This document shows, one piece after another, positions 4,343 through 22,954 of a DNA stretch of 64,000 nt. The notes under the pieces were generated by a model, which saw only the letters and a list, made by a program, of their open reading frames with translations, did not search any database and was not told the origin of the DNA. Position 1 is the stretch's first letter, and each line of letters opens with the position of its first letter. Both the position numbers and the translations under genes were made by a program. Origin of the DNA: Mycolicibacterium sarraceniae. Its GTDB lineage: Bacteria; Actinomycetota; Actinomycetes; Mycobacteriales; Mycobacteriaceae. The stretch spans positions 1,736,001 through 1,800,000 of the forward strand of contig NZ_AP022595.1 in NCBI RefSeq assembly GCF_010731875.1, written 5' to 3'.

Positions 4343-4401
4343 GTCAATCACCTCTTGGGTCGATGCCAGCCTAAATGGCCGGTTGCCTAGCCACAACCTA
4401 G

Positions 4402-4413
4402 ATGACACGTCAT
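4402..4413. promoter_or_regulatory. Short inverted repeat in the pirin/MarR divergent promoter
   Basis: ATGACACGTCAT has perfect 5-bp arms (ATGAC/GTCAT) around a 2-bp spacer and sits between the two divergent starts, 22 bp before the MarR start codon. MarR proteins commonly bind such short palindromes between themselves and their target, so this is a plausible autoregulatory operator. The repeat is short enough to be chance. Confidence 0.35.
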
Positions 4414-4434
4414 GTATTCCGCTAAGGTGATCGC

Positions 4435-4881: not shown

Positions 4882-4935
4882 CCCAGTCCGCCGCCACAGC
4901 AGGGCTGCGGCGGTGGATCGACGTGTGGTGTGGGA

Positions 4936-5118
4936 TCAACCCGCCATGAAGGCGTCGTAGGCCGTCTGCAGGTTCGGCGGCAACACCGAGACATTGCACG
5001 ACTGCTGGGTGTCAGCGATCGGTGCGAGGATTCCGCGCAGGTCGTAGCACTCACCGGGGTTGGCGGTGAAGTAGCCGCGCACGTTGGCTTCGGCCTGGGG
5101 GCGCGGCTGGGTGTACAA
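4936..5118 (-). pseudogene. 5'-truncated hemophore-related protein remnant
   Basis: The frame encodes about 60 residues with the C-terminal pattern of small exported mycobacterial hemophore-related proteins (VRGYFTANPGECYDLRG, then a Cys, VLPPNL, AYDAFMAG). No signal peptide or N-terminal Cys is present: the frame begins at a weak TTG and an in-frame TAA lies 24 bp further upstream at 5140-5142. The next gene's start follows immediately on the other strand. The 5' half of the gene seems to be missing. Family assignment is from memory of the motif, not a search. The gene is probably not expressed as a functional exported protein. Confidence 0.55.
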
Positions 5119-5143
5119 CCTGCGTGGCCTTAGTGACCGTTAG

Positions 5144-7038
<1,895 letters not shown>

Positions 7039-7086
7039 CGAGCTCATGGCACGCCGATGTCAGCACGCTCCGCTAGGTTGCCAATC

Positions 7087-7836
7087 GTGACGGACGACAA
7101 GATGCTGGCGCGCATCGCGGCACTCCTGCGCCAGGCCGAAGGCACCGACAACGTCCACGAGGCCGAGGCGTTCATGGCCGCCGCCCAGCGGCTGGCCACC
7201 GCGACATCGATCGACCTGGCGGTCGCGCGCGCCCACTCCGCCACCCGCACCGCCGCACAGGCACCGACCCAGCGGACCATCACCATCGGTGAGCCGGGCT
7301 CCCGGGGCCTGCGTACCTACGTGCAGCTGTTCGCGGGCATCGCCGCGGCCAACGACGTGAAGTGCGATGTCGCCTCGAATTCGACGTATGTGTACGCCTA
7401 CGGTTTCGCCGAGGACATCGACGCCAGCCATGCCCTCTACGCCAGTCTGGTCGTGCAGATGGTGCGCTCGTGTGACGCCTACCTGGCTACCGGTGCCCAC
7501 AAGCCGACGCCGACCATCACCGCGCGGCTCAACTTCCAGTTGGCCTTCGGTGCGCGCGTCGCCCAGCGCCTCTCCGAGGCGCGCGAAGAGGCCACGAAGG
7601 AAGCCACCCGGGACCGCAAGACCGCGCCGGGAACGGCATTGGCCTTGCGCAACAAGGAACTCGAGCTGCGTGACCATTACCGGCAGAACTCCCGAGCGCG
7701 CGGCACCTGGCAGGCTAGCCGGGCGTCGGCGGGATATTCGTCGGCGGCCCGGCGTGCCGGTGACCGGGCCGGCCGGCAGGCCCGGCTGGGTTCCAGTCCT
7801 GAACTGCCCGGGGCGCGGACCCGGCTGCGCAAGTGA
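7087..7836 (+). CDS. DUF2786 domain protein (Rv0184-like)
   Basis: 249 aa from GTG 7087 (VTDDKMLARIAALLRQAEGT), chosen over the in-frame ATG 7057 because the DUF2786 domain begins right here and 249 aa equals the recalled length of Rv0184. DUF2786 covers about residues 1-45 with the conserved KIxxLLxxAEGT-like motif and an EAExFMxxA helix. The C-terminus is very basic and Arg-rich. Function is unknown; the family often occurs near phage or stress genes. It overlaps the next gene by 4 bp (GTGA), and the same pair is adjacent in M. tuberculosis. Confidence 0.85.
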   Translation: MTDDKMLARIAALLRQAEGTDNVHEAEAFMAAAQRLATATSIDLAVARAHSATRTAAQAPTQRTITIGEPGSRGLRTYVQLFAGIAAANDVKCDVASNSTYVYAYGFAEDIDASHALYASLVVQMVRSCDAYLATGAHKPTPTITARLNFQLAFGARVAQRLSEAREEATKEATRDRKTAPGTALALRNKELELRDHYRQNSRARGTWQASRASAGYSSAARRAGDRAGRQARLGSSPELPGARTRLRK

Positions 7837-8330
7837 CGGCGCGCGACAGCCAACGCTCCCGCGTCTACGGGGCCGAGGAGTTCGTCCGAACCCTTTTCGA
7901 TCGCGCCGCCCAACACAGTTCACGCACCATCGACTTCTTCGGGGCGCAGCTCACCCTGCCGCCTGAGGCGCGATTCGCGTCGATGCCGTCAGTGCGGCGC
8001 TATGTCGGCGATGTCCTCGCGCTACCCGCGGTGAGCGCCCGCTGGCCGCAGGCAGGGCCGCTGACCGTGCGGACGCGGCGCGCTGCCAGTGCCGCGCACT
8101 ACGAAAGCTCCGGTGGCACGGGCATCATCGCGGTACCGGACCGTGACTCCGCGGACTGGGCGATGCGGGAGCTGGTCGTGCTGCACGAGATCGCCCATCA
8201 TCTGAGCCCGCAGGGGCCCGCGCACGGCCCGGACTTCATCGCGACTTTCTGCGAGCTCGCCACCGTGGTGATGGGCCCCGAGGTCGGCCACGTGTTGCGC
8301 GTGGTCTACGCCAAAGAAGGCGTGAAGTAA
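7833..8330 (+). CDS. Putative zinc metallohydrolase, TIGR04338 type (Rv0185-like)
   Basis: 165 aa from GTG 7833, overlapping the stop of the DUF2786 gene. A central HEIAHH (about residues 113-118) with the preceding LVVL strand is a zinc-binding HExxH helix. A downstream GPAHGPDF supplies a third His, giving the HExxH...H arrangement of the mycobacterial metallohydrolase family I remember as TIGR04338. Substrate unknown. The conserved pairing with the DUF2786 protein suggests they work together. Confidence 0.85.
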   Translation: MTARDSQRSRVYGAEEFVRTLFDRAAQHSSRTIDFFGAQLTLPPEARFASMPSVRRYVGDVLALPAVSARWPQAGPLTVRTRRAASAAHYESSGGTGIIAVPDRDSADWAMRELVVLHEIAHHLSPQGPAHGPDFIATFCELATVVMGPEVGHVLRVVYAKEGVK

Positions 8331-8370
8331 CTCGCTTGAAGATCGCGTGACGGGCGAGGAGACTCCAGCT

Positions 8371-8985
8371 ATGCGCCGTGAAGTGAAGACCGTTGCCGCG
8401 CTTCGGGAGATCGTGGGCGAACCCGATCCCTATGTCGCGAACAAGGTCAAGGACCGGCTCTCGCCGGTCCAGTGCGACTGGTTGGCACACTCCCCGTTGG
8501 CGTTTGTCGCGACAACGGATCAGCATGGCCGCGTGGATGTTTCCCCGAAGGGTGACCCGCCAGGATTCGTGCATGTGATCGACGAGCAGACCATCGCCAT
8601 CCCGGATCGGACTGGCAATAAGCGTGTCGACGGCTATCTCAACGTAGTGCAACGCCCACAGGTCGGAACCCTGTTTGTCATCCCCGGTCGCGGGGACACT
8701 CTCCGGATCAATGGACGGGCCCGAATCCTGGCCGACGCCGACTACTTCGACACCATGATCGTGCAGGGCAAGCGCCCACTGTTGGTGATGGAGGTCGACA
8801 TCGAGGAAGTGTTCTTCCACTGCTCCAAGGCATTCCTGCGGTCCGATACCTGGAAGCCCGAGACCTGGAATCCGGACGCGCTGCCCAGCGTGGCGAAGAT
8901 GGCCAAGGCACTGCGGACGGACTGGACCGATGCCCAGCTCGAGGAGCGCTACAGCGAGGAGAACATCCGGCGGTCGATGTACTAG
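8371..8985 (+). CDS. Pyridoxamine 5'-phosphate oxidase-fold (PPOX) protein
   Basis: 204 aa. ATG 8371 is preferred over GTG 8347 because GAGGAG lies about 10 nt before it. It has the split-barrel flavin/F420-binding fold: LAFVATTDQHGRVDVSPKGDPPGFV is the typical first hairpin, followed by IAIPDRTGNKR (phosphate-binding) and VGTLFVIPGRGDTLRINGRARI. It resembles the DR_2398-like PPOX subfamily of about 200 aa. The cofactor could be FMN or F420; no substrate is known. Its TAG stop lies inside a 38-bp repeat shared with the end of the molybdopterin oxidoreductase gene, marking the left edge of an inserted island. Confidence 0.85.
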   Translation: MRREVKTVAALREIVGEPDPYVANKVKDRLSPVQCDWLAHSPLAFVATTDQHGRVDVSPKGDPPGFVHVIDEQTIAIPDRTGNKRVDGYLNVVQRPQVGTLFVIPGRGDTLRINGRARILADADYFDTMIVQGKRPLLVMEVDIEEVFFHCSKAFLRSDTWKPETWNPDALPSVAKMAKALRTDWTDAQLEERYSEENIRRSMY

Positions 8986-9017
8986 CCGGCCCGGGCGACC
9001 TCGACCGGTAGCGCATT
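8980..9017. repeat. Left direct repeat (DR-L) of the island
   Basis: Begins TACTAGCCGGCCCGGGCGAC and ends GGTAGCGCATT; it matches 18578-18615 at 37 of 38 positions (the single difference is G at 8997 versus C at 18595). It contains the stop codon of the PPOX gene. Read on the minus strand it is the last 11 codons plus stop of the molybdopterin oxidoreductase (..LPVEVARAG), here without the rest of that gene. Confidence 0.9.
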
Positions 9018-9022
9018 TCGGA

Positions 9023-9593
9023 TCACACCAGCGATGCGGTCAGACCTCCGTCCAGCACATAATGGCTGCCCGTGATCCAGCCGGCCTTGTCTGACGCAAG
9101 GAAGGCGGTGACCTCGGCGATATCCTCTGGGGTTCCCAGACGCCCCTGCTTCATCGCGACGAGGTCTGCGAACGGTATTTGGGTCGCTTCCTCGAAATCA
9201 GGGCGGAGTCGGTCGACCATCGCCGTGTCGACGAAACCTGGGCACACCGCATTCACCCGCACCCCCACTGACCGAAGCTCGACGGCTGCGACCCGTGTGA
9301 GCTGAATCAATGCGGCCTTGGTCGCGCAGTACGAGCCAAGTAGCGGGCTACCGCCGATACCGGCAATCGACGCGATGTTCACAATGTTGCCCCTGGACGG
9401 CACAAGATGCTCTACGGCGGCTTTCATTGTCACGAACGGCCCGCGGACGTTCACGGCAAAGATGGTGTCGAAGTCGGTCGAGATCGCTGACGACGACCCG
9501 TGCGCCGCGATCGATGAAGAGGGTGGCAATCGCCTTGCCGATGCCGTTGGCGGAACCGGGGACGAAGACTCGCTTACCGGTGAGGCCCGACAT
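9023..9593 (-). pseudogene. SDR family oxidoreductase, broken by internal deletion and frameshift
   Basis: Starts ATG 9593 with a good Rossmann N-terminus (MSGLTGKRVFVPGSANGIGK, then ARVVVSDLD), but at about 9475-9485 the homology jumps to another frame at TDFDTIFAVNVRGPF and runs to the normal SDR C-terminus (YCATKAA with active-site Tyr/Lys, VCPGFVDT, VLDGGLTASLV). The NNAG region is missing, around 60-65 residues compared with a usual 250-aa SDR, and the reading frame changes at the junction. The gene sits third in a minus-strand operon after the DUF3556 and FAD oxidoreductase genes and ends 6 bp from the left island repeat. A functional enzyme is not expected. Confidence 0.82.
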
Positions 9594-9632
9594 TGGAAGA
9601 CCTTTCCGGATTGGTGTTCATGGGCGAAGTTG

Positions 9633-11063
9633 TTATATGGCAGTGGTCTTGATGCCCAAGTCCTGTAGGGCCACAGTCGCCGCATTGACACCGCACATGC
9701 CGTGCGCACCAGGGCCGGGCGGGGTGGCTGCCGAGCAGAGATACATTCCACGGACGCCGAGTCGATACGGTGACAGTGTGGTCCTAGGACCGAACACAAG
9801 TTGTCGAACATCCTTCGCACCCGTCATGATGTCGCCGCCCACAAAATTGGCGTTCTCCGAGAAGATTTCGTTAGTGGTGTGGGAGCGTTTGGCGATTATT
9901 CGGTCGCGGAAGCCGGGGGCGAAGCGCTCGATCTGGCCGATGATCGCCTTTGTCGCGTCGCCGGCGAAGCCGTGCGGAACGTGTGCGTATGACCACACTG
10001 GATGGATAGAGCCCACGGAGCGTGGCGGGTCGGCCAGGTACTGCTGACCGACCAATACGAACGGGCGATCTGGCATGCGGCCGGCGTGCACTTCTCGTTC
10101 AGTGGCGGCCAATTCGGCATAGGTTCCCGCCAGATGCACCGTGCCAGCCAGGTGGGCAAGCGGATTCGTCCACGGCACGCCGCCCTCGATTGCGAAGTCG
10201 ATCTTGAAGGCACCTGGCCCCCGGCGGAACTGCCGGAATGCGCGGCTGATCCGCCCAGGCAGCCTGTCGCCCATGATGTCTGCCACAGTCGAGGGAGCCA
10301 GGTCGAACACAGTGATGTCGGCGGGTGGGAGCTGGGTCACCGAACCGATGCGAGTGCCCGTTTCGATCACCCCGCCTAGATCAGAGAGTTTGTGTGCCAG
10401 CGCATTTGAGATCTGCTGAGAGCCTCCCTGCGCGACCGCCCAGCCGTGACGGTGGCCCGCCGTGATGATGCCTAGTCCGATTGCCGACGTCAGCGGATAG
10501 TGCAGCGGCCGAAAGGCATGGGCGGCCACGCCGCCGAAGAGAGCTCGGGCTTGCGCGGAGTTGAAGATCCGCGCAGTCGCCGATGCCGGCAGTAGGGTCG
10601 GGATCCCGAAGCGAGTCAGAGTGATTGGATGCCGAGGTAGGTGCAACAGCGGACGCATGATGTCTCGGGCCAACGCATCGAAGTTGCGCGCCGGCCCTTC
10701 GAAAAGGCTCCGCCATCTCGGCGCATCGGGACCTAGACCGGCAGCCGTCAGCTCGATCGAGCGATACAGCACCCCCGCGGTCCCGTCATCGAGGGGATGC
10801 ACGCAGTCAATCTCGGGAAGCATCCACCGCAGCCCGTATCTGTCGAGGTCCAGTGCGCGGAGGAAGGCCGAGCCGACCGCCATGGGATGGATCGCCGAGC
10901 AGTGGTCGTGCAAGAGGCCGGGTACCAAGCCCTCGCTACTTCGTGCTCCACCACCGATTGTGTCGTTAGCTTCCAGTACGGTCACTTCAACGCCGTTGGC
11001 CGCCAGTGTGATAGCGGCAGCCAGGCCGTTTGGCCCAGCGCCGACGACGGTTGCGGAGGTCAC
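9633..11063 (-). CDS. FAD/NAD(P)-dependent oxidoreductase, phytoene-desaturase (CrtI)-like
   Basis: 476 aa from GTG 11063, whose GTGA overlaps the stop of the DUF3556 gene. Residues about 4-33 are a dinucleotide-binding fold: VVGAGPNGLAAAITLAANG, then the acidic end VTVLEAND and GGGARSSE. The C-terminus has the family's FAD motif (VRGMYLCSAATPPGPGAHGMCG). This COG1233 group includes carotenoid desaturases, ketolases and isomerases, so the substrate is likely a lipid-like polyene, terpenoid or acyl compound; the exact reaction cannot be read from sequence. It is the middle gene of a three-gene operon. The longer open frame continuing upstream to 11891 lies inside the DUF3556 gene and is not real. 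Confidence 0.85.
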   Translation of the reverse strand: MTSATVVGAGPNGLAAAITLAANGVEVTVLEANDTIGGGARSSEGLVPGLLHDHCSAIHPMAVGSAFLRALDLDRYGLRWMLPEIDCVHPLDDGTAGVLYRSIELTAAGLGPDAPRWRSLFEGPARNFDALARDIMRPLLHLPRHPITLTRFGIPTLLPASATARIFNSAQARALFGGVAAHAFRPLHYPLTSAIGLGIITAGHRHGWAVAQGGSQQISNALAHKLSDLGGVIETGTRIGSVTQLPPADITVFDLAPSTVADIMGDRLPGRISRAFRQFRRGPGAFKIDFAIEGGVPWTNPLAHLAGTVHLAGTYAELAATEREVHAGRMPDRPFVLVGQQYLADPPRSVGSIHPVWSYAHVPHGFAGDATKAIIGQIERFAPGFRDRIIAKRSHTTNEIFSENANFVGGDIMTGAKDVRQLVFGPRTTLSPYRLGVRGMYLCSAATPPGPGAHGMCGVNAATVALQDLGIKTTAI

Positions 11064-12838
11064 GTCCGAGCGCCATGCCCTCGTCCAGGCCGCACCCAGT
11101 CGACATGGGTGGCAATCGGCCCATCGGGCAGCCATGGTTGTGCCTCGACCGCATCGGCGACCCTCCAGGTGCCGCGCTCGATGACACCCAGTGCCGCGTC
11201 GATGAGTTTGTAGTGCTGCACGCCGCTGCCGAAGGCCTCCGACTCGACCCACGCGATGACGCACTCGCCAGGCAGGAACTGGGCTTCGTCTTGGACGGCC
11301 GCGATCATGTCTTCGTTGTGGAAGTGGCCCTCGCCGAAGTTGAATCCGATGATCGAGTTGCACAAGAACTCGGCTTCGCGCACGGTGCGGCTCTCGATGT
11401 CGGGCAGATTGCGCAGCAGGACCGAGAACAGTCCACGACCCTGACTGTGCAGACTGCGCCACGCGATGGTCTTCTGGAGCACGATTTCGTTCCAGGGAAT
11501 CTCGTATCCGGCGCCTTCGAACTGGTCTATCTGGTTCGTCGCCGACCGGGTCACGCGGTTGAGCTTCTCTTCGGCACCGGGGGTAAAGGTCCACAGCGCC
11601 GACGCCCAGTTGCCCGCGTACTGCCGCATTGAGGGCAGGAACGAAATCTTGTCGGGCCGAATGTTCCCGAGTACTGGGAAGAACAGAAGTGCGGCGAGTA
11701 TTACCAGAGCGAGCCAGGGTGGTGACATGTTCCAGGGTGCGTAACCGTGCCATGCCGGAAATCCCAGGAAAAGGAAAACCGTTGCGTAACAGAACAAGAT
11801 GTTCCACTCCAACGGAACCGCGAGGGGGAACGTGGACACGATGAACAAGTGGAAGCAAACCATCAGAGCGACCGCGGCGACCGTCAACCATTGTGTGGTG
11901 GACAGCAACAGCACCAGCGGTGCGGCTATCTCGACGAACGTCCCACCAACATGTGCCATGACGGTCGCGACGCGTGACGGCTTCATATCGTGCGGGAAGT
12001 CGCGATAGTGCAAGCGTTTAATCCACGTAAACGGCACCGCAGGGCTGTTGCTGATCATCGGCGGTATCACGTTGGAGAAGTGCTTACCGAACTTGGAGAA
12101 GCCTGCGCCGACCCACACGACCACGATCAGTATTTTGCACGCGATGATCATGTCGACGAAGGGAAGAACGGCGAAGAAGGTCAGCGCAGGAAGGTACTGC
12201 TCGCCGCGCGCGCCGAGAAAGACGATCTTGTCGCGCAAGCCAATGATGATCAGCAGGACGATCGGAGCAGCGAGCAACGCCGGGGCAACCACTCCGGTTG
12301 CATTCCCGGGCACGGCCGCCGACAGTGAATCGCTCTGCGCGCCAGGCATAACCAACGCCACGACGATGCTTGCCAGCAGCGCCAGGTACAACAGGACATC
12401 CACCGCGGTGCGGCGACTACCCGAGGTCAGCGGAACCCACGTCCACGGCCGGAGCCGAATGGTCCCCATCCGAGCCCAGAACCAGATGCCTCCGGTCATC
12501 GGTTTCACCTTGCCCGCCAACGGCCCCCACGATCCACCGATGCCGATAACCTCGACCAGTACCGTCCACAGGATCGCCTTCTGGTAGACGATAGGCTGGT
12601 TCCACCACTGTGCGACGTGCCAGAACGCCGGCAATCCCGACGTCAGAGTGGCGATGGTGATCCCGCCGATCGCATACAACCCGAACACCTTGAGTAAATA
12701 GATGCAGTGCACCATCTTCGGTGAGCCAAAGCCGTTCTCGGCCCAGTCAGCACCGAGGATGCGGACGCGCTCCATGAGTGGCTGTTGCAGAAATGTCGTC
12801 GGATCGACGCTGGGGAGGTCGGGTTTGATGAAACCCAT
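11060..12838 (-). CDS. DUF3556 multi-pass membrane protein
   Basis: 592 aa from ATG 12838 with AAAAGGA about 8 nt upstream. It begins MGFIKPDLPSVDPTTFLQQP, the typical start of the actinobacterial DUF3556 family. About eight to ten hydrophobic segments follow between residues 50 and 420 (for example ALLAAPIVLLIIIGL, LTVAAVALMVCFHLFIV), then a soluble C-terminal domain of about 150 residues with His-rich GEGHFHNEDM. The family layout (an HTTM-like membrane part plus soluble tail) hints at membrane-bound lipid chemistry, but function is not established. It is the first gene of the operon with the CrtI-like oxidoreductase, which suggests they act on the same hydrophobic substrate. Confidence 0.8.
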   Translation of the reverse strand: MGFIKPDLPSVDPTTFLQQPLMERVRILGADWAENGFGSPKMVHCIYLLKVFGLYAIGGITIATLTSGLPAFWHVAQWWNQPIVYQKAILWTVLVEVIGIGGSWGPLAGKVKPMTGGIWFWARMGTIRLRPWTWVPLTSGSRRTAVDVLLYLALLASIVVALVMPGAQSDSLSAAVPGNATGVVAPALLAAPIVLLIIIGLRDKIVFLGARGEQYLPALTFFAVLPFVDMIIACKILIVVVWVGAGFSKFGKHFSNVIPPMISNSPAVPFTWIKRLHYRDFPHDMKPSRVATVMAHVGGTFVEIAAPLVLLLSTTQWLTVAAVALMVCFHLFIVSTFPLAVPLEWNILFCYATVFLFLGFPAWHGYAPWNMSPPWLALVILAALLFFPVLGNIRPDKISFLPSMRQYAGNWASALWTFTPGAEEKLNRVTRSATNQIDQFEGAGYEIPWNEIVLQKTIAWRSLHSQGRGLFSVLLRNLPDIESRTVREAEFLCNSIIGFNFGEGHFHNEDMIAAVQDEAQFLPGECVIAWVESEAFGSGVQHYKLIDAALGVIERGTWRVADAVEAQPWLPDGPIATHVDWVRPGRGHGART

Positions 12839-13005
12839 ATCGGAGTTCCTTTTCGTGCTGTTGAGAGGTGAGGCGGGGTACGCGATATCGCGATATGTCG
12901 CTAACTTAGGGACAAGTGATCTGGAGCACACGGTGTTAGGGAGACGAATCTGCCTGAGCCATTTGTCGATGGCGCACAAGTGATCCGTTGGGGCGCAGTT
13001 GCCGG

Positions 13006-14355
13006 TCAGTCCGCGAGCAGCACGGCCGGCCCGTACCAGCGGCATACCAACAAGGCGACTTCGACATCGAGTCGGTCGTTCCGAATGGGTTTGCCGCGGC
13101 GGTGGAGAGCCCGATCAACGCGATACTTGACCGAGTTGAAATGCATGTTGAGTTCTTCGGCTGCGAGCTTGTAACTCCCTGCGCAAAGAAATACGCGCAG
13201 GGTGTCGCGCAGTCGGGCATCGTTGTCGGTGTTGGCTGCCAAGGGGCCGAGCACCTCACCGACCCAGTCGCGCAACATGGCGCCGTTGGCGGCCAGCAGC
13301 GCAGCGATCGCGACTCCTGGGTCGTCGACCGCCATCGTTATCGGTGTCCTCGACGCGTGGGCACGACCCAACTCCCAGGTCAGCCATGCCCGTCTGTGTG
13401 AGCGCCGGAAGCCCTCGATGCCCGAGCCGGCCGATCCCAGGGACATGTGCGGCGGATCGTCGAAGCCGTTGAGCGCAGCGCGGATTCGCTCCACTGGCGC
13501 GGTGGGTAAGGACCGGTACGGCAACCACACCCATGCGGTAGCCGCGTCGACAGGTGCGAACAGCGGATTCCCGCCCACTTCGATCCTGGCGCCGAGGTCC
13601 CGAACGAACCGATGCAGGCGGGAGAGCTGATCGGGGTGGTCGTCGGTCTCGGGGTATCCGACGATCAGAGCGACGTGGTGCCAGCGCAGCGGATACCGGA
13701 TGTCGACCGATGTTGCCTCCGCATCGACAACGGTGTCCTCGGCAAGAAGCTCGCGGACTTTGAGCGTGCGGATACTGTGTTGGTTTTCGACCCACCGTTC
13801 CCGTTCGTCCTCGTAGACGGCAACCACCTGCTGGGTAACCGAGTCGATGTATTCGAACGTGACTCGGGTGATCTTCTGGATCGTGGCGACGCGCGCCAGG
13901 GGGTCGATGTTGAGTGACTCGAGTTCGACGAAGATGAGCTCTGTCAGCCGGCGCTGTCCCAGCCGATAGCCCCGAACGAGAGCGTTGACCGGAACCCGGT
14001 GTTGAGCCAATCTGCGCGCATATTCCACGGCAGCGGCGGGAGCTGTGATTCGGTCGACAGCGATTCTGTGCTGCAGGGCGTGAAGAATCGTGTCCACATT
14101 GCTCTCGACACTGGCGCTCAGTAGTTCGGCGCTGGCTGCATCACCACGCAACTCGGCGACCTTGTCAGCGATCTCATCACGGACAAGGGAGGTCACCGAA
14201 GCCAGAGCTTCATTGAGTCTGGCCGCGATTGATGCGACGTGACGGTCGACCTCAGCCGTATCACTGAAGTCCGCCGTCGTCACAGCATGACCATAGGTTT
14301 TTCCGTACGCTTCCGAGCCAACTTTGCGTACCGATTCCTGGAAAGTGATTGTCAT
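13006..14355 (-). CDS. PucR family transcriptional regulator (helix-turn-helix at C-terminus)
   Basis: 449 aa from ATG 14355, 5 bp after the stop of the lipase gene, with no clear Shine-Dalgarno, so translation may depend on the upstream gene. The C-terminal 60 residues are the PucR HTH (LRVFLCAGSYKLAAEELNMHFNSVKYRVDRAL). The middle has a GGDEF-like/CdaR-type domain (HHVALIVGYPETDD..) and the N-terminal 170 residues are helical (RsbR-like sensor). PucR/CdaR regulators usually activate catabolic operons when they sense the substrate. Here it lies between the lipase and the DUF3556 operon and is the obvious local regulator of the island. Confidence 0.87.
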   Translation of the reverse strand: MTITFQESVRKVGSEAYGKTYGHAVTTADFSDTAEVDRHVASIAARLNEALASVTSLVRDEIADKVAELRGDAASAELLSASVESNVDTILHALQHRIAVDRITAPAAAVEYARRLAQHRVPVNALVRGYRLGQRRLTELIFVELESLNIDPLARVATIQKITRVTFEYIDSVTQQVVAVYEDERERWVENQHSIRTLKVRELLAEDTVVDAEATSVDIRYPLRWHHVALIVGYPETDDHPDQLSRLHRFVRDLGARIEVGGNPLFAPVDAATAWVWLPYRSLPTAPVERIRAALNGFDDPPHMSLGSAGSGIEGFRRSHRRAWLTWELGRAHASRTPITMAVDDPGVAIAALLAANGAMLRDWVGEVLGPLAANTDNDARLRDTLRVFLCAGSYKLAAEELNMHFNSVKYRVDRALHRRGKPIRNDRLDVEVALLVCRWYGPAVLLAD

Positions 14356-14360
14356 GGCAC

Positions 14361-15749
14361 TCAGAGTTGGCCGCAGTTGGGTGTCGTGGGCACCCCATTG
14401 AATCGATCCGCCAACCACTGGATGCTGCGTTCGCCGTCCACATAGAGCGGAAGCAGGTTGTTGATGTCGAGCTTGTTGAGCAGTGGCGGTTGTTCGTTGG
14501 TCCACAATTGCACATCTGCCCCCCTGGCACACCAGTCGAGCGCGGTTTGTCGTGCCGGTTGGTAGGGCACCAGCGGGTCCCACCGGTTATGAGTGATGTA
14601 CACCGGTCCCGTCGGGGTGAGGTTTCCGACTCTCTGAGCTGCGAGCAGGCTCTTGAACGGGTCATTGCTGACCAAGGCGGTCAAGTCGGTGTTGAACCAG
14701 AACTGTAGGTGGCGGAAGGCGTAGTCGACGCCGCCTTGGAGCAGGCAGGTGCGCCCCGACCAATCGAGCATTTGCAGACCTCGGGGCGTGAGGGTATCGC
14801 GTACCGCCTGTTCGGTCTGCGGATAGGCGGCAATGATGCCCCGTAACAGATAACCCGCAAGAACTGCGAAGAAGTTGCCGTCGATCCCCGGGATCGCCTC
14901 GGCAACATCGGTCACCGGCGCGTCGGCGAAGGTACCGACGACGCGCAGTTCGGGAGCGTAGGTCGCTGCCTGTTCGGCCGCGGACAGCGACGCCTGGCCT
15001 CCGGATGCGTAGCCCCAAAAAGCCACCGGGCCATCGGGTTTCAGTGATGTATCGGGCAACCGCTGTGCGGCTCGTGCTGCGTCGAGCAGCGCAGTGCCGC
15101 TGGCCACCCGATTGAGCCACTGGGGTGACTGGGGGCCGTGCACACCCATACCGACCCCATCGGTGACGACGATCGCGAAGCCCCTGGCCAGCAGCGTCGC
15201 GATGAAGCCCTCTTCCATGTTGAACATCAGGTCGAAGCCTTGTGAGAAGTGGATGCCTTGGTTGAACAGGCGCGACGGAGCGCATTGCTCTCCGACTCCG
15301 TAGGGGCCGGTGGCGTAGGCGAGCAACGGGCGCGGACCATTTCCGGGCCAGGGCACGTCTGGTTCGATATAGGTGCCCGTTACGGCGACGGGGTTGCCCT
15401 GAGCATCGCTGCTGCGGTACATAATTCGGGTCCCCGTGCCGACGTAGGAACCCAGTTGGCCGGATGGCTCCAGGGCGAGCCGTGAGGGCTCGGTGCGGAT
15501 CAGGTCACCGGGAGCGCCGGCCGGCAGTGGTTCGGGTGGTGTGTAGAACGCTTCATACATTCGATCGTCGGCACGGGCATGCGGTACCGACCACACCGGT
15601 GCGACCAGCGTCGCGGTGAGCGCTGCGGCGGTCGCAAGGGCCAGCCGCGCGACGCCGGCCCGACGCCGTCGGTGGCGGCGGTGAAACGGGGTGCCGGCAC
15701 CCGACGAACCATCGAAGGTGGCGATAACGGGCGGCACTTCTGATCGCAT
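14361..15749 (-). CDS. LIP-family secreted lipase homologue, predicted catalytically inactive
   Basis: 462 aa from ATG 15749 (AGGGA upstream; TTG 15776 is possible). A long basic N-terminus (HRRHRRRRAGVARL) precedes a hydrophobic stretch and an ARADD cleavage-like site at about residue 60, so it is exported. The body matches the secretory lipase (LIP) family (LLAYATGPYGVGEQCAPS, IVVTDGVGMG, ITHNRWDPLVPY, SIQWLADRF, C-terminal Cys). The elbow reads GYASGG, where Ala stands at the usual Ser position of GYSxGG. The C-terminal 80 residues contain no His after the Asp motif, so both nucleophile and base seem lost. It may bind a lipid, or use an unusual Ser one residue on. Confidence 0.78.
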   Translation of the reverse strand: MRSEVPPVIATFDGSSGAGTPFHRRHRRRRAGVARLALATAAALTATLVAPVWSVPHARADDRMYEAFYTPPEPLPAGAPGDLIRTEPSRLALEPSGQLGSYVGTGTRIMYRSSDAQGNPVAVTGTYIEPDVPWPGNGPRPLLAYATGPYGVGEQCAPSRLFNQGIHFSQGFDLMFNMEEGFIATLLARGFAIVVTDGVGMGVHGPQSPQWLNRVASGTALLDAARAAQRLPDTSLKPDGPVAFWGYASGGQASLSAAEQAATYAPELRVVGTFADAPVTDVAEAIPGIDGNFFAVLAGYLLRGIIAAYPQTEQAVRDTLTPRGLQMLDWSGRTCLLQGGVDYAFRHLQFWFNTDLTALVSNDPFKSLLAAQRVGNLTPTGPVYITHNRWDPLVPYQPARQTALDWCARGADVQLWTNEQPPLLNKLDINNLLPLYVDGERSIQWLADRFNGVPTTPNCGQL

Positions 15750-16012
15750 TCGGTGTCCCTGACTGGAGGTCGGCAATTTGGCTCACCCAAGCTAGGGAGG
15801 GGTGAGCGGGCTCACACAGTCGCCAGATCACGAAACTGAATCAACGTGTTGTTGATCCGAAACAAAGGTCGAACATGCTGGCGGCACCGGGACCCTTTGT
15901 GGGCGAGGAACAAACGCTCGTCTCATCTCTGTGGGCGGAAGCCATGTGCGCGGCAGCGCACGACTCCTACCGTTGCGGCACACCTGACCCGACGATCCAG
16001 GAGTGGTAGAGC
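15750..16012. other. Divergent promoter region of the island
   Basis: 263 bp between the lipase (minus) and the small plus-strand gene at 16013. It presumably holds the promoters of both arms and the site for the PucR regulator. An inverted CAACGTGTTGTTG-like stretch (15842-15854) lies near its left end, but I see no convincing operator. A 44-codon open frame (ATG 15875 to TAG 16009) is present with AAAGGTCG upstream; its product has no recognisable features. Confidence 0.4.
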
Positions 16013-16297
16013 ATGGCCGTAGATCGGCGGTTTCCTCTTTTTGCCTGGGAGGACACCTCACTGGACTCGGCCTACGCCTCCGGGCCGCTCGGGCGCGCCC
16101 ACTGCCTCATTCACGGTAACTGCAACTACAAACAGAGCGCCCTGCTCAACGCGCACGCGGCAGCGCACCTGCTCAGCGCCCCTCCCCGCGCGGTGGGTTT
16201 CGCATCGAGCTGCCAGGCGTTTGGTTATCGGGAACTGCTGGGCACACTGCGGGCTTTCGGCCTGGTGCTCGACCCGATCGTCACGGTCAATAGGTGA
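16013..16297 (+). CDS. Small protein, possible C-terminal remnant of a DUF5938-type gene
   Basis: 94 aa from ATG 16013, with AGGAG about 11 nt upstream; an in-frame TAG lies 6 bp before the start. The sequence (FPLFAWEDTSLDSAYASGPL, later CNYKQSALLNAHAAAHLL and SSCQAFGYRELLGTLRAFGL) looks like the C-terminal part of the larger saccharopine-dehydrogenase-like DUF5938 proteins, which I recall only loosely. If so, the NADP-binding N-terminal domain has been lost. The stop overlaps the ligase start (GTGA 16294-16297), so its translation may serve to couple ribosomes onto the ligase gene. Real expression is likely, independent function doubtful. Confidence 0.5.
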   Translation: MAVDRRFPLFAWEDTSLDSAYASGPLGRAHCLIHGNCNYKQSALLNAHAAAHLLSAPPRAVGFASSCQAFGYRELLGTLRAFGLVLDPIVTVNR

Positions 16298-17838
16298 GCG
16301 ACGTCATGCGCCTGGTCGACTACCTGGACAAAGGAACCTCCCTGGGTCGCGACGCACCGTGTCTGACGATGTCTGGTGTCACCCAGACCTACGGTGAGGT
16401 CTACGACAAGACCGTCCTCATCGCAGGGGCGCTGCAGCATAGTGGAATTCAACCAGGCGACTCGGTGGCGGTGCTGTCTGCCAACGACCCGCTGGCACTG
16501 ACATGCGTATTCGGAATCTCACGTGCCGGCGCGGTGTGGTGCCCGGTAAACCCTCGTAATGCTGCCGACGAAAACCGCGAACTATTCGCGTTGTTCGGTT
16601 GCCGACTGCTGTTCTTCCAGAAGAAGTTCGCCGACCTCGTCGACCGGATACGCCACCAACTGCCCGCCCTGGAGTGGTTGGTCTGTATCGATGGCGACGT
16701 GCCTGAGGTGGCAACCCTTGATGACTGGCTTGCCGAGAATCCCGTTCTACCAGAAGAGAATCGACGCCCCTCCGACGGGCTTTGCATCCTGGCCGGAACT
16801 GGTGGGACCACCGGCAAACCGAAAGGCGTGCGGCTCACCGAGACCAACATCGTGACCTCGACCGCGCTGGCGCTGATGAGCTACCCATTCGGAGATCGGC
16901 CGCGTTATCTGGCTCTTGCGCCGCTGACGCATTCCGCGGGAGTCTTGAGCTTTCCGATCCTGACTCTTGGCGGCGAAGTCGTGATCATGCCCTCCCCGGA
17001 CATCGGGGAGTTCCTCGCGCTCATCGAACGTCACCGGATCACCCATGCCTTCCTGCCGCCCACCGTCATTTACGGATTGTTGGACCATCCAGACCTCGAC
17101 GGTACGGATCTGTCCTCGCTGCGTTGCTTGTGGTATGGTGCTGCGCCGATGTCGCCGACTCGGTTGCAGGAGGCTCTGAAGCGCATCGGCCCGATCATGG
17201 GGCAACTGTTCGGGCAAACCGAGGCTCCGAACATGATCACCACACTAGGGGTCGCCGATCACTTCCGATCAGACGGTTCTGTTGCCACCGAGCGTCTTTC
17301 GTCTGCCGGCCGGCCGACACCGTTGACGACCGTCGCGATTATGAGCGACGAGGGAACGTTGCTACCGACCGGCCAACGCGGTGAGATCGTCGTACGCGGT
17401 CCCTTGGTCATGGACGGCTACCACCTCAATCCCGAGGCGACCGCCGAGGTGAGTACGTTCGGATGGCATCACACCGGGGACATCGGCTACCTCGATGCGG
17501 ACAATTACCTGTACGTCGTAGACCGCGCCAAAGACATGATCATCACCGGCGGATTTAACGTCTACTCTGCCGAAGTGGAGCAGGCCCTGCTCGCTCACCC
17601 GGCTGTGGGGGAGGCCGCGGTTGTCGGCTTGCCGGATCCCAAATGGGGCGAACGTGTGACGGCCGTGATCGAGTTGCGTGCGGGATGGGACCTGGGACCA
17701 GACGAGCTGATCGCCTTCGTTAAACAGCGGATTGGCAGTGTCAAGGCGCCCAAGGAAATTCAGATCACCGCGAATCTACCCAGGTCGCGGATCGGCAAGG
17801 TGCTCAAGCACGAAGTGCGGGCGAACCTACTCATGTGA
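16294..17838 (+). CDS. Acyl-CoA synthetase / AMP-dependent ligase (ANL superfamily)
   Basis: 514 aa from GTG 16294, coupled to the small upstream gene. It has all ANL motifs: the phosphate loop AGTGGTTGKPKG (about residues 167-178), GQTEAPN in A5 position, YHLNPEATAE, the A7/A8 hinge TGDIGYLDADNYLYVVDRAKD then GGFNVYSAEVE, and the catalytic Lys in PRSRIGKVLKHE near the C-terminus. It should adenylate a carboxylic acid and load CoA. The variant of the A5 Thr-Glu motif and a full-length C-domain suggest an active enzyme of the medium/long-chain or aromatic-acid type. It is probably the committed activation step of the island pathway. Confidence 0.9.
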   Translation: MSDVMRLVDYLDKGTSLGRDAPCLTMSGVTQTYGEVYDKTVLIAGALQHSGIQPGDSVAVLSANDPLALTCVFGISRAGAVWCPVNPRNAADENRELFALFGCRLLFFQKKFADLVDRIRHQLPALEWLVCIDGDVPEVATLDDWLAENPVLPEENRRPSDGLCILAGTGGTTGKPKGVRLTETNIVTSTALALMSYPFGDRPRYLALAPLTHSAGVLSFPILTLGGEVVIMPSPDIGEFLALIERHRITHAFLPPTVIYGLLDHPDLDGTDLSSLRCLWYGAAPMSPTRLQEALKRIGPIMGQLFGQTEAPNMITTLGVADHFRSDGSVATERLSSAGRPTPLTTVAIMSDEGTLLPTGQRGEIVVRGPLVMDGYHLNPEATAEVSTFGWHHTGDIGYLDADNYLYVVDRAKDMIITGGFNVYSAEVEQALLAHPAVGEAAVVGLPDPKWGERVTAVIELRAGWDLGPDELIAFVKQRIGSVKAPKEIQITANLPRSRIGKVLKHEVRANLLM

Positions 17839-17884
17839 GCCCTGTGCCGCCCACCACCACCTCGATCAGTACAAGGGAGTTCAC

Positions 17885-18563
17885 ATGGCGGGTCTGCTTG
17901 CCGACAAAGTGGCGGTCGTCACCGGAGCCGGCGCCGGAATAGGAGCGGCGATCGCACGGGCTTACGCTGCCGAAGGCGCCCGCGTGTTGGTCTCGGATAT
18001 CGACCCCGGCAGGGCCGACGCCCTATCTGCTGAGATACCGAATTCGATCGCTGTGGTGGCCGATGTCCGCGACGAGCACCAGGTCAAGAACATGGTGGCG
18101 ACTACTGTCGAGAGTTTCGGCGGCATCGACATCGTCGTGCCCAATGCCGGGATCGCGACCACGGTTCCGTTGGCGCAGACAAGCTATCGGCAGTGGCGCG
18201 ATCTCCTCGATTTCCTCGACCACGGGTTCCGCGTTGATCGGTAGCTATGCCGCGGCCAAGGCGGCAGTGCGGAATCTGACCGAAACCCTCTCCGCAGAGC
18301 TCAGATTCCACAACATTCGGGCCAACGCCCTGCTTCCCGGATTCATCGACACCGAACTGGTGACGTCACACCAGCACGATTTCGAGGCAGCTTTGGGATT
18401 GTCCGACGGTGGTTTCGACGACCTCATTGCAGCCAAACAAACCCGGTACGGCCGGACCGAAGAGGTCGCCGCGGCAGCGGTGTTCTTCGCAAGTGAGCAG
18501 TCATCCTGGTGTAACGGCAGCAGCCTGATCCTGGACGGTGGGTTCCGCGCGTCGTTGCTGTAA
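17885..18563 (+). pseudogene. SDR family oxidoreductase, broken by internal deletion and frameshift
   Basis: ATG 17885 follows AAGGGAG. The first 110 codons are a normal SDR (VAVVTGAGAGIGAAIARAY, VSDID, VADVRDE, VPNAGIA in place of NNAG). After QWRDLLD the frame runs into FLDHGFRVDR and stops at 18244. Another frame picks up at about 18227 with GSALIGSYAAAKAAV (active-site Tyr/Lys) and continues to a normal C-terminus, SSLILDGGFRASLL, stop 18563. Roughly 35-40 residues including the catalytic Ser strand are missing at about 18210-18228. It ends 14 bp before the right island repeat. It is a distant paralogue of the SDR at the other end and likewise faces outward. Confidence 0.85.
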
Positions 18564-18577
18564 ACGGCGCACGGCTC

Positions 18578-18615
18578 TACTAGCCGGCCCGGGCCACCTC
18601 GACCGGTAGCGCATT
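18578..18615. repeat. Right direct repeat (DR-R) of the island
   Basis: Copy of 8980-9017 with one mismatch. On the minus strand it encodes the last 11 residues and stop (TAG, 18582-18580) of the molybdopterin oxidoreductase, so this copy is the ancestral one. Outside the repeat the sequences diverge at once on both sides (GATGT versus GCTCT to the left, TCGG versus GAGC to the right). Confidence 0.9.
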
Positions 18616-20802
18616 GAGCACGGCGGTGCCCGACAACGGATCCAGGAGCGTGCCATCGTTGAGACTGTTGACGTTGACGCCGGGGTTCCGTGCCGCCACC
18701 CGCATCCGGGTGCCCGGCTCGGTGTGCCCCCAACCGTGCGGCAGCGACACCACGCCCGGCCGGATCGCGTCGGTGATCTCCACGGGCACTTCGAGTTTCC
18801 CGCCAGGCCCGGTCACCACAGCCAGCTCGTCCAGGCCCAGTCGCGCGGCGTCATCGGGATGGATCTGCAGTGTGCAGCGATTGGAGCCGCCGGACAATGC
18901 GGGCAGGTTGTGCATCCAGCTGTTGTTCGACCGCAAATGACGCCGGCCGATCAGCAGAAATCCCGGCTCGGACGTCAACGCTGCGAGCAACCGGGGGATA
19001 TCGGCCAGGATCGGTTCTGGATCCAATTCCACTGTCCCCGAGGGTGTTCGGAGCACCTCAGGAATACGGGGGACCAGTGGGCCCAGGTCCACTCCGTGCG
19101 GAGCATCCTTGAGTCGCTGCAGGGTCAGGCCGTCGGGCTTGGTGCCGAACCCGTCACCAAACGGGCCCAGCCGCAGCATCATGTCCAGGCGCCGTTCGTA
19201 ACCACGGCCGTCGGGCAGCATCGCCGTCAACTCCTCGACCGACCGGCCGGCGACCGGGGAGTACTCGTCGGCGACTTCCTTGCCCAGTGTGGATCCGATC
19301 ACCTGGTCATCGACGAGGTTCGAGTCGGCGTCGGGCCCCAAGCCCAACACGATCAGCGCCAGCCGGGCCAGGATCTCGCACTCGTCGGGCCGACCGGCCG
19401 CCAGCGGCAGTACCGGCGGGGAGAACCGGGCGTTGTTGCGCACCATCGCACCGGACAGGGCGAGGTCGAAATGTGCTGCGCGAGAAGGTGGCGGCGGTGG
19501 CAGGATGACGTCGGCGTGCCGGGTCGTCTCGTTGCGGTAGGGATCAACCGACACCATGAACTCGACGCCGGCCAGGGCGTCGGCCAGGCGGGCGCCAGCC
19601 GGCGCGGACAACACCGGGTTACCCGCGATGGTGATCATCGCGCGGATCTGCCCCTCGCCGGGAGTCTCGATCTCCTCGGCCAGGGCGACCGCGGGCATCT
19701 CGGACAACACCTCGCGGTGGCCGGAGACCCGGCTGTGCCAGCGGCCGGTCTTGAAACCGCGGCCGGGGCGAGCGGGCCGCGGGGCGCCCGCAATCGGTGA
19801 GCTGGCGAACATCACCCCACCGGGCCGGTCCAGATTGCCGGTCAGGATGTTCACCACGTCGACCAGCCAGCTGGTCAGAGTGCCGAACTCGACGGTCGAG
19901 GTGCCGATGCGGCCGTAGACCGCCGCACTTGGCGCCGCGGCGATTTCACGTGCGAGAGTGCGGATTTCATCTGCGTCCACCCCACAGTGGTCGGCGACGG
20001 CAGCCGGCGGGAAATCGGCTGCCGCGGCCCGAACCCGTTCCAGGCCCGTCACATGCTCGGCGAGCCGGCCCAGCTCCACGAGATCTTCGTCGAACAGGAC
20101 GTGCACGATCGCGAACAGCAGTGCGGCATCGGAGCCGGGGCGTACCGCGAGGTGGCGATCGGCCAGTTCGGCGGTGCGGGTGCGGCTGGGATCGATCACC
20201 ACGAGCGTGCCGCCGCGCCGCCGCAACGCCTTGATTTTGCCGGGGAAGTCGGCCGCTGTTGCCAGAGAACCGTTCGACACCAACGGGTTTGCGCCGAGGA
20301 TCACGAGGTAGTCGGTGCGGTCGAGGTCGGGCACGGTGAACGCCACCGGGTTGCCATAGAGGTAGCCGCACGCGACGTGCTTAGGCATCTGATCGAGCGT
20401 GCTCGCCGAGTACACCTGCTTGGTACCCAGTGATTTGATCACGACGGGGCCGTAGAGCGAGCCGGCGATGGTGTGCGCGTTGGGGTTGCCCAGATAGACC
20501 GCCACCGACGCGCCGCCGGTGCCGGCGATGACGCGCTGCAGTCCCTCGGTGGCCGCGGCGAAGGCCTGCGCCCACGTGGTCTCGACCAGCTCACCGTCGC
20601 GGCGCACCAGTGGGTTCTGTAACCGGTCGGGATCGTTGTCCAATTCGCCGAAGCTGGCGCCCTTCGGGCAGATGAAGCCGTGGCTGAAGACATCGTCACG
20701 ATCGCCCCGGGCGGCACTGACCCGATCGTTGTCATCAATGGTGAGGACCATCCCGCAGGTGGCCTCGCACAACGGGCAGATACGCAAAGCGGTGCGGGTC
20801 AT
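18580..20802 (-). CDS. Molybdopterin-dependent oxidoreductase, formate-dehydrogenase-like (Rv0197-like)
   Basis: 740 aa from ATG 20802; GTG 20811 three codons earlier has GGAG 5 nt upstream and may be the true start. The N-terminus has a [4Fe-4S] motif CPLCEATC then CPKG about 30 residues on, as in bis-MGD enzymes of the DMSO-reductase family. Then come the MGD-binding regions (LVILGANPLVSNGS, VVIDPSRTRTAELAD, TSTVEFGTLTSWLVDVVNILTGNLDRPGG) and the C-terminal beta-barrel (LQIHPDDAARLGLDELAVVTG). There is no Tat signal, so it is cytoplasmic. The electron donor and substrate are unknown. Its order relative to ilvD and zmp1 suggests the Rv0197 orthologue. Its 3' end is duplicated at the far edge of the island. 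Confidence 0.87.
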   Translation of the reverse strand: MTRTALRICPLCEATCGMVLTIDDNDRVSAARGDRDDVFSHGFICPKGASFGELDNDPDRLQNPLVRRDGELVETTWAQAFAAATEGLQRVIAGTGGASVAVYLGNPNAHTIAGSLYGPVVIKSLGTKQVYSASTLDQMPKHVACGYLYGNPVAFTVPDLDRTDYLVILGANPLVSNGSLATAADFPGKIKALRRRGGTLVVIDPSRTRTAELADRHLAVRPGSDAALLFAIVHVLFDEDLVELGRLAEHVTGLERVRAAAADFPPAAVADHCGVDADEIRTLAREIAAAPSAAVYGRIGTSTVEFGTLTSWLVDVVNILTGNLDRPGGVMFASSPIAGAPRPARPGRGFKTGRWHSRVSGHREVLSEMPAVALAEEIETPGEGQIRAMITIAGNPVLSAPAGARLADALAGVEFMVSVDPYRNETTRHADVILPPPPPSRAAHFDLALSGAMVRNNARFSPPVLPLAAGRPDECEILARLALIVLGLGPDADSNLVDDQVIGSTLGKEVADEYSPVAGRSVEELTAMLPDGRGYERRLDMMLRLGPFGDGFGTKPDGLTLQRLKDAPHGVDLGPLVPRIPEVLRTPSGTVELDPEPILADIPRLLAALTSEPGFLLIGRRHLRSNNSWMHNLPALSGGSNRCTLQIHPDDAARLGLDELAVVTGPGGKLEVPVEITDAIRPGVVSLPHGWGHTEPGTRMRVAARNPGVNVNSLNDGTLLDPLSGTAVLNALPVEVARAG

Positions 20803-20903
20803 GCAAGCCACTGTGCTCCGCGGGCAGACCCGCTGGCAAGCCCAACCAACCGGATGGTCAGATTTGGCCAGTTGGACCAGAGATCCCGCACGACGATCAG
20901 GCG

Positions 20904-21213
20904 ATGTTCGGATTCGATTCTGCGGCAGGCATTCTCGATGAGGGATACCTGCAGACCGAGAAAGGATACGGTACCCTTCGGGGCGGCGGATTCCGCGTCG
21001 CGATCCGCACCGGCATGCCCGGTGTCACGCCGGCGATGTGGGACTGGCGGTTCGGCTGGCATGGCAGGTGAATCCACCCGCGACACGCTGTGGCATCCGC
21101 GTGCCCACGCGTCAGCTGCCGGAGGTGCGCGACCTGCTAGAACCCTGCGCACGGGAGACGAACCACCCGGCGAGCTTCTTGCCGGCGCTTTACGCGCGGT
21201 TCGAAGGTCCGTA
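20904..21213 (+). pseudogene. Decayed DAPG-hydrolase (PhlG)-like gene
   Basis: Three pieces of one protein family appear in three frames. From ATG 20904: an N-terminal piece containing RTGMPGVTPAMWDW then FGWHG, stopped by TGA at about 21071. Overlapping it in the next frame is LWHPRAHASA (about 21088-21117). A third frame from about 21115 ends NHPASFLPALYARFEGP with TAG at 21211-21213. VTPxMWDWxFGWHG and xWHPRAH are features I associate with the 2,4-diacetylphloroglucinol hydrolase family. The gene has lost over half of its usual length through deletion and frameshifts and cannot make an active enzyme. The rest of the 20803-21316 gap shows nothing else. Confidence 0.6.
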
Positions 21214-21316
21214 GTCCCCGGTTTCGTCCAGCATTGCGAAAGGAAGCTGACTCCGAGGCTGTTTTGGGCTAAATTCCTGAGCGCAGGCTGAGAAATCCGA
21301 TGTAGGGGGAGCGGCA

Positions 21317-22954
21317 ATGGCAGAGACACGAATCGCCCGGAAAGGCGCACGGATCTCGAGCGCCACCAGGAAAGCCGGGCTGTTCGGTGCGGCGGCCGCG
21401 ATCGCGACTGCGATGACGCTCGGAATGACCGCGCCGGCCCTGTTGCCCTCAGCCAGAGCAGCAGATGTCACCCTCAACGGCGTGACCACTGGACCGGTGT
21501 TCCGGCTCTTGCAGGCCGCTGGGGTGAACTCGGTGGATTTTTCCAATGTGGCACCGCCGTTGATCGACACCCTCACGATCGACTTCGCCTACACCGACTC
21601 CAATCCGGTGAACCTGGCTGATCAGATCAATGCCTTCCCGTTCGGCGGATGGAACATCCTGACCAACAGTTTCAGACGCCAGCCCGGCGGGATCTTGGGG
21701 TCGGCGCTTCTCGCGGGTTCGGGGTTTGCCACCTTGGACACGAACGACGCCTATCAAGCGTTGCTGTCGAGCGCTGGCGGTAATACGTTGCCGGGATACA
21801 CCCCGCTCGTGGGTCCAGGGTTGATCAACACTCTGACCGGGGCGCAGTGCTCGTCCCAGGGCACCTTCTGCAGGCCGGGCGAGAACGTGACGAACCTGGC
21901 GCTTCTCCTGCTGAACAGCCCACTGACGCCCAATGGTGGGCTCTACACGCGCTTCGCCCCGATTGCGAACCTGTTCGGCATCAACCTCGTTAATCCGGTC
22001 GGCACAAGCGCCTCGAGTTCAACGCCGGCCACCCGGGGCAGCGGCGGCATCGTCACTCTGAACTCCGCGGTGGTGAATGTCGGGCTGGAGTACAACGCGT
22101 TGTCCGACTTGCCGGCGACCCTGAACCCGTTCTCGCTCGCCAACACCCTGCTGGCCACTGTCTTGCCGACCAACTTGCTCGGCGGTGTGAATCTCGGGGG
22201 TGCGTCGCTGAGCGACGTCTCGACTGCCCTCGGCCTGCTGGCGACGCTGGGTTCAACGAGTACCACCTACAGCACCTTGGCGCCCAACGATCTGCCGCTG
22301 CTGGAGCCCCTTCGTCTGCCGGTGCGCCTGATCAACGCCGTCTCAAACGCGCTCGGTCATCCACTGAACCTGGGGACCCCGCTCGCCGACGCGTTGCAGC
22401 CGGCGCTGACGATTCTGGTCAACACCGGCTACACCGATGTCAAGACCCCGACCGACGGGGGCACCTACAACCGGACATTCGACCAATCCGGCGACTCCGT
22501 CACCTTCCTGTCGCAGGCGACGCTGACCCCGGCGGAGTGGGCGCGGGTGCCGGGCGATGTCGTTCGGGCACTGATCGTCGGATTCCAGGATTCGTTCCCG
22601 CTGCTCCGGTTCGGGAAAACGGCGCCGGTGCTCACGGTGGATAGCGACCATCTGAAGATCACCTACCCGTCGGCGCCATCCGGTAGCACGAGCACGCGGA
22701 CAGCCACTTCCGGCGTTTCGATATCGACTCCCGCCGCATCGACTCCCGCCGCATCGACTCCCGACGCCGAAACGGTCAGCACCCCGTCGACCGGCATCAC
22801 GTCGACCACCAGATCCTCGGCCGGCGGTGCGAAGTCGGCCGCGGCAACCGGTCAGACGGGCTCACGCTCAGCTGGCCCGTCGGCGCGCACCGGATCCACC
22901 CATAACGGCGGCGTCGGCGTGTCCAAGCGATCCGCCACCAGGGCAGCGGACTAG
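21317..22954 (+). CDS. Exported PE-PPE-domain-like protein with low-complexity tail
   Basis: 545 aa from ATG 21317 with GGGGGAG about 6 nt upstream. A signal peptide covers residues 1-49 (hydrophobic [19 protein letters not shown], cleavage near ARAAD). The body up to about residue 450 resembles mycobacterial exported PE-PPE (serine-hydrolase-related) proteins, including the conserved [19 protein letters not shown] and [16 protein letters not shown] then FQDSFP. No GxSxG nucleophile elbow is evident, so hydrolase activity is doubtful. The last 90 residues are Ser/Thr/Ala/Gly-rich with three STPxA repeats, a likely disordered cell-wall linker. It ends head-on with ilvD, the two stops sharing CTAG (22951-22954). 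Confidence 0.6.
22724..22768 (+). repeat. 15-bp tandem repeat, three copies, coding STPAA
   Basis: TCGACTCCCGCCGCA occurs twice exactly (22724-22738, 22739-22753) and a third time with two changes (22754-22768), encoding [15 protein letters not shown] in the tail of the exported protein. The in-frame unit can expand or contract without a frameshift, so copy number may vary between strains. Confidence 0.9.

Follow-up and report, generated by a model that had tools for sequence, protein, structure and literature searches.

Genes and repeats at the PPOX-moco junction

The 64,000-bp stretch of the Mycolicibacterium sarraceniae genome analyzed here (contig NZ_AP022595.1, positions 1,736,001 to 1,800,000; hereafter the window, in whose numbering features are given) holds an island of 9,560 bp (9018..18577, not assigned to a strand) which we take as acquired and which separates two convergent genes. 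On the left lies the gene of a PPOX-type flavoprotein of the MSMEG_1061 family (8347..8985, plus strand; NCBIfam TIGR04025, over its cut-off), hereafter PPOX, preceded by the gene of a TIGR04338 metallohydrolase (HEXXH; 7833..8330, plus strand, again over the NCBIfam cut-off) which is conserved in relatives as the left neighbor of the site. On the right lies a molybdopterin oxidoreductase gene, called moco below (18580..20811, minus strand; profile matches below cut-off). The original prediction, made on this DNA from its letters, had described moco as a housekeeping gene. Its identity as an oxidoreductase agrees with the NCBIfam molybdopterin oxidoreductase models that its protein matches, whereas a housekeeping role stays unconfirmed, and none of the 25 models listed of 26 is matched over its cut-off.

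Two direct repeats of 38 bp, at 8980..9017 and 18578..18615 and neither of them assigned to a strand, bracket the island and are identical at 37 of 38 positions, as had been predicted. Sequence comparison also bore out the reading of the right copy as the coding end of the oxidoreductase and of the left one as its duplicate. The right 38-mer consists of TA and the true last 36 bases of moco; the left one starts within the last codons of PPOX (TAC TAG), so that the TACTAG end of this gene lies inside the repeat, and continues as a copy of the last 36 bp of moco. The single difference, G on the left and C on the right, gives a valine codon GTC or GTG in the moco reading and is synonymous. A possible remnant of the PPOX tail at the right copy, in the 20 bp before TACTAG, was considered and dropped: a random 20-mer from the island scored equally well in 18% of trials, and the P values of ungapped matches, at lengths of 3-18 bases, were 0.03-0.19.

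The 38-bp pair is far from chance. A search of the whole 4,828,255-bp genome with the 36-base pattern and up to 3 mismatches found just the two copies of the pair, and not the many unrelated sites that the original prediction had named as an outcome speaking against it; the reversed pattern, used as a control, gave zero matches. As a further control, 1.16 Mb of the same genome (24%, three blocks amounting to 58 stretches of 20 kb) was compared with itself for direct repeats of at least 28 bp with at least 93% identity and a spacing of 0.3-60 kb. Among the 48 pairs within these limits, 43 lie inside two regions of GC-rich repeats (158.5-174 kb and 1651-1655 kb), and three have the size of insertion sequences (306114/312979, 1578810/1597227 and 1594976/1638057 on G000:C1, outside the window; 1.3-1.7 kb, 99% identity). 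The remaining two are the short unique pairs, namely the PPOX-moco pair and a perfect 64-bp pair (genome positions 1533094 and 1537909) that begins within a tRNA-Ala gene and encloses an integrase. This 4.8-kb tRNA-Ala element (G000:C1:1533094-1537972, locus L283, outside the window) served as a comparison.

Gene content and decay of the island

The left half of the island is read on the minus strand. It begins with a broken SDR gene, SDR1 (9023..9593), recognized by Pfam PF00106/PF13561 in two frames with the N-terminal piece below the curated cut-off, followed by a CrtO/CrtI-like flavin adenine dinucleotide-dependent oxidoreductase (9633..11891, bounds of the open reading frame (ORF); best Pfam domain at residues 282-335, NCBIfam CrtO below cut-off) and a DUF3556 membrane protein (11060..13045, ORF bounds; domain at residues 70-648, PF12077, E 2.1e-261). 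Then come a PucR-type regulator with GGDEF_2 and HTH_30 domains (13006..14583; Pfam, with NF050824 below cut-off) and a secretory lipase of the LIP family (14361..15776; PF03583). On the plus strand are the C-terminal fragment of a DUF5938 gene (16013..16297; PF19362, profile positions 154-233 of 234), an acyl-CoA ligase with an AMP-binding domain (16294..17838), identified by Pfam and homologue searches and nearest to proteins from other genera of the family, and a second broken SDR gene, SDR2 (17885..18563), identified by Pfam and by comparison with an intact relative.

Compared with intact relatives, SDR1 has lost about 61 residues internally and SDR2 about 29, each with a change of frame. 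With both terminal SDR genes broken and the DUF5938 gene truncated, the island is decaying. The stop codon of SDR1 lies 5 bp from the left repeat and that of SDR2 14 bp from the right one.

The island DNA has a GC content of 62.4%, versus 67.2% in the rest of the window. Among relatives, the matches listed to this DNA reach at most 77% identity with partial cover only (371 of the 396 genomes scored), so that an island shared with a relative was rejected, and a megablast search against plasmids and phages returned no match, upon which an origin as plasmid or phage DNA was rejected. The left half resembles a mycobacterial cluster in which DUF3556 and CrtO-like genes adjoin a PucR regulator; in G049 and G039 this cluster is neighbored by SDR genes related to both SDRs of the island. 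Relatives of the lipase are 82-86% identical in three fetched loci. For the acyl-CoA ligase, no match at E 1e-150 was found in the other 197 of the 198 genus genomes searched, and relatives with 61-71% identity were found in nine genomes of other genera (61 family genomes searched). Seven of the nine have a DUF5938 gene next to the ligase, as in the pair at 16013-17838 of the window. Judging from its lower GC content, the lack of any close copy found and a ligase with near relatives in other genera, the island looks acquired. In content it is a decaying metabolic cluster with lipid-metabolism-like genes, and otherwise unremarkable.

Empty and occupied junctions in relatives

Searching related genomes for the empty site, as had been proposed, relied on a query of 603 letters in which the two flanks are joined through a single repeat, compared with 396 genus genomes including that of M. 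sarraceniae itself. Among the matches listed, 13 genomes gave an unbroken match over at least 593 of the 603 letters. In G321 the joined piece is a truncated copy of moco and not an empty site. This leaves at least 12 of the 396 genomes in which PPOX lies directly beside moco, the latter being aligned in full or almost in full, or as far as the fetched stretch extends. The clean CTAG junction that had been predicted was recovered: PPOX ends in TACTAG in nine of the 12 and in TACTAA in G093, the stop codons of the two genes overlap in ten, and in G183 and G156 the genes stand 10-11 bp apart. Together with the restored 3' end of moco in M. sarraceniae, these empty sites uphold the prediction of an insertion into a gene end that was rebuilt. 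No tRNA or known RNA was found in the window, nor in the region 8000-21500 in particular, and such a gene was rejected as insertion target.

The same junction is occupied in at least six genomes among the matches listed, namely that of M. sarraceniae and five relatives, with inserts of 4.7 kb (G321), 5.3 kb (G053), 4.6 kb (G175), 0.6 kb (G314) and 0.08 kb (G004). DNA comparison of these five cargoes with the island gave no match; those of G053 and G175 have parts in common at 77-79%, and those of G314 and G004 share 136 bp at 79%. By DNA similarity there are four cargo types among the six occupied sites listed, to which variants lacking PPOX are added. The cargo of the other species was read as ORF translations.

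In five of the six occupied sites a copy of the moco tail clearly stands directly behind PPOX, when its score is compared with those of 5000 random island stretches, none of which reached it: 33/34 positions in M. sarraceniae, 55/60 in G321, 16/16 in G314, 12/13 in G175 and 9/9 in G004. The search for other cargo at this place, also proposed beforehand, yielded in this way five occupied relatives, four of them with clear tail copies; that of G053 is weak (6/7 bases, P 0.017). The lengths of the copies in the relatives are 9, 13, at least 16 and about 490 bp, with the weak 7 in G053, and partial decay is possible. The longest is in G321 (locus L175, about 2960-8260), where a truncated second moco 3' end joined to PPOX is followed by the 4.7-kb cargo and by an intact moco. 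This copy aligns over 491 bp at 90% to the adjacent intact gene, which is itself 95.8% like the moco of G024 over about 500 bp. In G098 a match to the repeat (83% over 41 query bases) might have been a second copy; it was taken as chance, as it lies inside long open frames and away from the genes of the locus.

In a moco tree of 26 genomes, species with empty and with occupied sites are interleaved, the gene content at the locus differs between sister species, and so does the presence of PPOX (G043/G288, G240/G294 and G098/G283). At loci L177-L183 and L186-L187 there is no PPOX between the HEXXH gene and moco, and some sister species have one; in some of the relatives lacking PPOX, its place is taken by another small gene that, read by eye, resembles an O-methyltransferase. 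With its gene content changing again and again, the interval between PPOX and moco resembles a hotspot of recurrent gene capture rather than the seat of a proven new mobile element.

Recombinases and attachment sites

A Pfam scan of the ten island ORFs detected no recombinase and no transposase. The genome contains 11 matches to PF00589 (tyrosine recombinases) and 2 to PF07508 (a serine-recombinase family), none of which is located between the repeats, in agreement with the predicted lack of a recombinase. The ORFs at the places of these recombinase matches were also compared by tblastn with 80 named loci of moco relatives; one locus matched (L151), at a position 6 kb beyond the end of moco, in a comparison where several loci extend little past the gene end and some query ORFs are possibly off-frame.

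With up to 3 mismatches, no third copy of the repeat core was found in the genome. Phages and plasmids gave no match covering 80% of a 50-base query; what matched was short, with 54% and 62% of the query covered in the best cases listed, and a phage or plasmid att site was rejected on these grounds. Viral contigs had zero exact matches to three repeat patterns. The original prediction had proposed a new attachment site and mobilization in trans, for which these searches gave no support.

Origin of the island

Very probably the block was acquired and inserted into a PPOX-moco junction that had been empty before, the main exception being the reverse order of events discussed below. As for the manner of its entry, the explanation that we favor, and to which we give nearly an even chance, is the capture of foreign DNA at the PPOX-moco hotspot without an integrase. 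A foreign cluster comprising SDR1, the CrtO-like, DUF3556, PucR regulator and lipase genes on one side, and the DUF5938, acyl-CoA ligase and SDR2 genes on the other, would have been captured between the convergent PPOX and moco genes with their overlapping stop codons (CTAG). At least 38 bp of junction sequence would have been copied in the event, with the left copy completing PPOX and the right copy completing moco, and this duplication would be a side effect of recombination in which no dedicated integrase took part. A staggered break may have been repaired by fill-in and linked to the foreign DNA; alternatively, homology may have anchored one end while the other was attached by illegitimate joining. 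End joining is possible because Ku is present in this genome. Selection would then have retained the duplicating event, because an insertion without duplication at overlapping stop codons would damage one of the two gene ends. The joining mechanism, the selection argument and the donor are what we infer here. Observed in favor of capture are the empty sites with their mostly overlapping stop codons, the other cargoes and the tail copies of unequal length at the junction, the interleaving of empty and occupied species, the scanned island ORFs free of recombinases and transposases, the lack of any core copy found elsewhere, the presence of Ku and the lower GC content. More broadly, and more speculatively, convergent pairs with overlapping stops might in general be integrase-free capture sites, which DNA would enter through break repair and where only junction-duplicating events would survive, an extension that we consider doubtful. 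If it is true, such sites would yield islands mimicking att-flanked elements but with repeats of variable length.

A number of observations weigh against capture without an integrase. Tyrosine integrases, too, classically leave behind a cleanly duplicated 3' end some 40 bp long, and the only comparable repeat pair in the 1.16 Mb belongs to the tRNA/integrase element; the 38-bp pair, far as it is from chance, is of the kind that accompanies an integrase element elsewhere in the same genome, which favors the integrase reading as much as it confirms the pair. Random ends would not be expected to fall as near to stop codons as the two ends of the island do, each within 14 bp of one. Decay may have shortened the left copies of the other insertions, which are possibly older, and the original lengths could have been alike. 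The composition is only moderate evidence for acquisition, because 2.9% of random 9.56-kb stretches of the sampled genome, island included, are equally GC-poor. Finally, no direct evidence for end joining was obtained.

The main rival is the remnant of an integrase-type island, in which a tyrosine recombinase would have joined an attP containing a moco 3' end to the chromosomal one, with the integrase and the other mobility genes being deleted later as the island decayed. The empty site, the duplicated gene end and the rebuilt host gene are all as expected from it, the tRNA-Ala element with its 64-bp pair and integrase occurs in the same genome, and the island is visibly decaying. Such an integrase, nevertheless, is not found in the island and would have been lost almost without trace, since the SDR stops stand 5 and 14 bp from the repeats; its arm sites would fall inside the SDR genes, with little room beside the repeats. 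The core has no third copy in the genome and none was found in phages, plasmids or viral contigs, one of 80 loci of moco relatives matched a recombinase-place ORF, 6 kb beyond the gene end, and tail copies of differing length stand at the same junction. We regard this rival as possible but rather unlikely: the missing recombinase, the SDR stops near the repeats and the unequal tail copies speak against a standard integrase element, and the variable copies and abutting stops likewise disfavor the site-specific integration that had been proposed. Because no recombinase was found, the locus is not classed as an integrase island, of which it nonetheless displays two features, the empty site and the rebuilt 3' end.

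Events may also have run in the reverse order, the island having stood beside moco before PPOX with a 36-bp moco tail arrived from an empty-site donor, through recombination anchored in the left flank and illegitimate joining at the right end. Homology-facilitated illegitimate recombination has been described in bacteria (PMC3240628). G301, G285 and G312, which stand nearest to M. sarraceniae in the moco tree, lack PPOX at the locus, the tail copy of G321 differs by about 10% from the adjacent full gene, as expected for DNA of another species, and the left repeat copy differs from the right one at 1/36 positions and from G043 at 2/36, which leaves the two sources indistinguishable. The right copy, on the other hand, retains the PPOX-type TACTAG, which is absent at the six PPOX-less junctions read out of nine (G301, G285, G312, G288, G009 and G294), and therefore moco was probably once joined to PPOX here; moreover, the identity of PPOX to G043 (86.7%) is near that of the flanks (85-86%), as under vertical descent. 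These points make the reverse order improbable. Ordinary transposition with a long target-site duplication would account for a direct repeat flanking an insert. It is very improbable, given the ten ORFs without a transposase, inverted 100-bp island ends whose longest exact match is 8 bp, and a duplication of 38 bp, which is unusually long for transposons.

Comparison with known systems

When direct repeats occur at the 3' end of a gene, an integrase element is the usual interpretation. With its empty and differently occupied relatives, the PPOX-moco locus allows one to test in nature whether capture without an integrase can generate such repeats and whether selection acting on overlapping gene ends can preserve them; an integrase-free origin, if true, would affect the calling of genomic islands. 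Our search of the literature found nothing on this locus, which is not proof of absence.

Three known systems can be set beside it. Homology-facilitated illegitimate recombination (PMC3240628) was shown in the laboratory, whereas at the PPOX-moco locus the process is only deduced from the junctions; it would make one junction homologous and the other illegitimate, and a partial copy of a flanking gene could result, as in G321. With the genomic islands of integrase type that TIGER/Islander and similar tools map (PMC12424338), the locus shares the contrast between an island and an empty site, a direct repeat derived from the 3' end of the host gene, and the rebuilding of that gene; it departs from them in that no integrase was found, there is little room for arm sites, and the copies of the moco tail at the junction are unequal. 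The horizontal gene transfer hotspots without integrases described by Oliveira et al. 2017 (PMC5635113) exchange their genes, in the account given there, by double homologous recombination in the flanking genes. By itself, such a model would not produce the 38 bp of gene end that are duplicated at PPOX-moco. Like those hotspots, however, the locus combines conserved neighbors, different cargo across relatives and no mobility genes recognized among the island ORFs scanned, and in its gene turnover it fits the description of an integrase-free hotspot.

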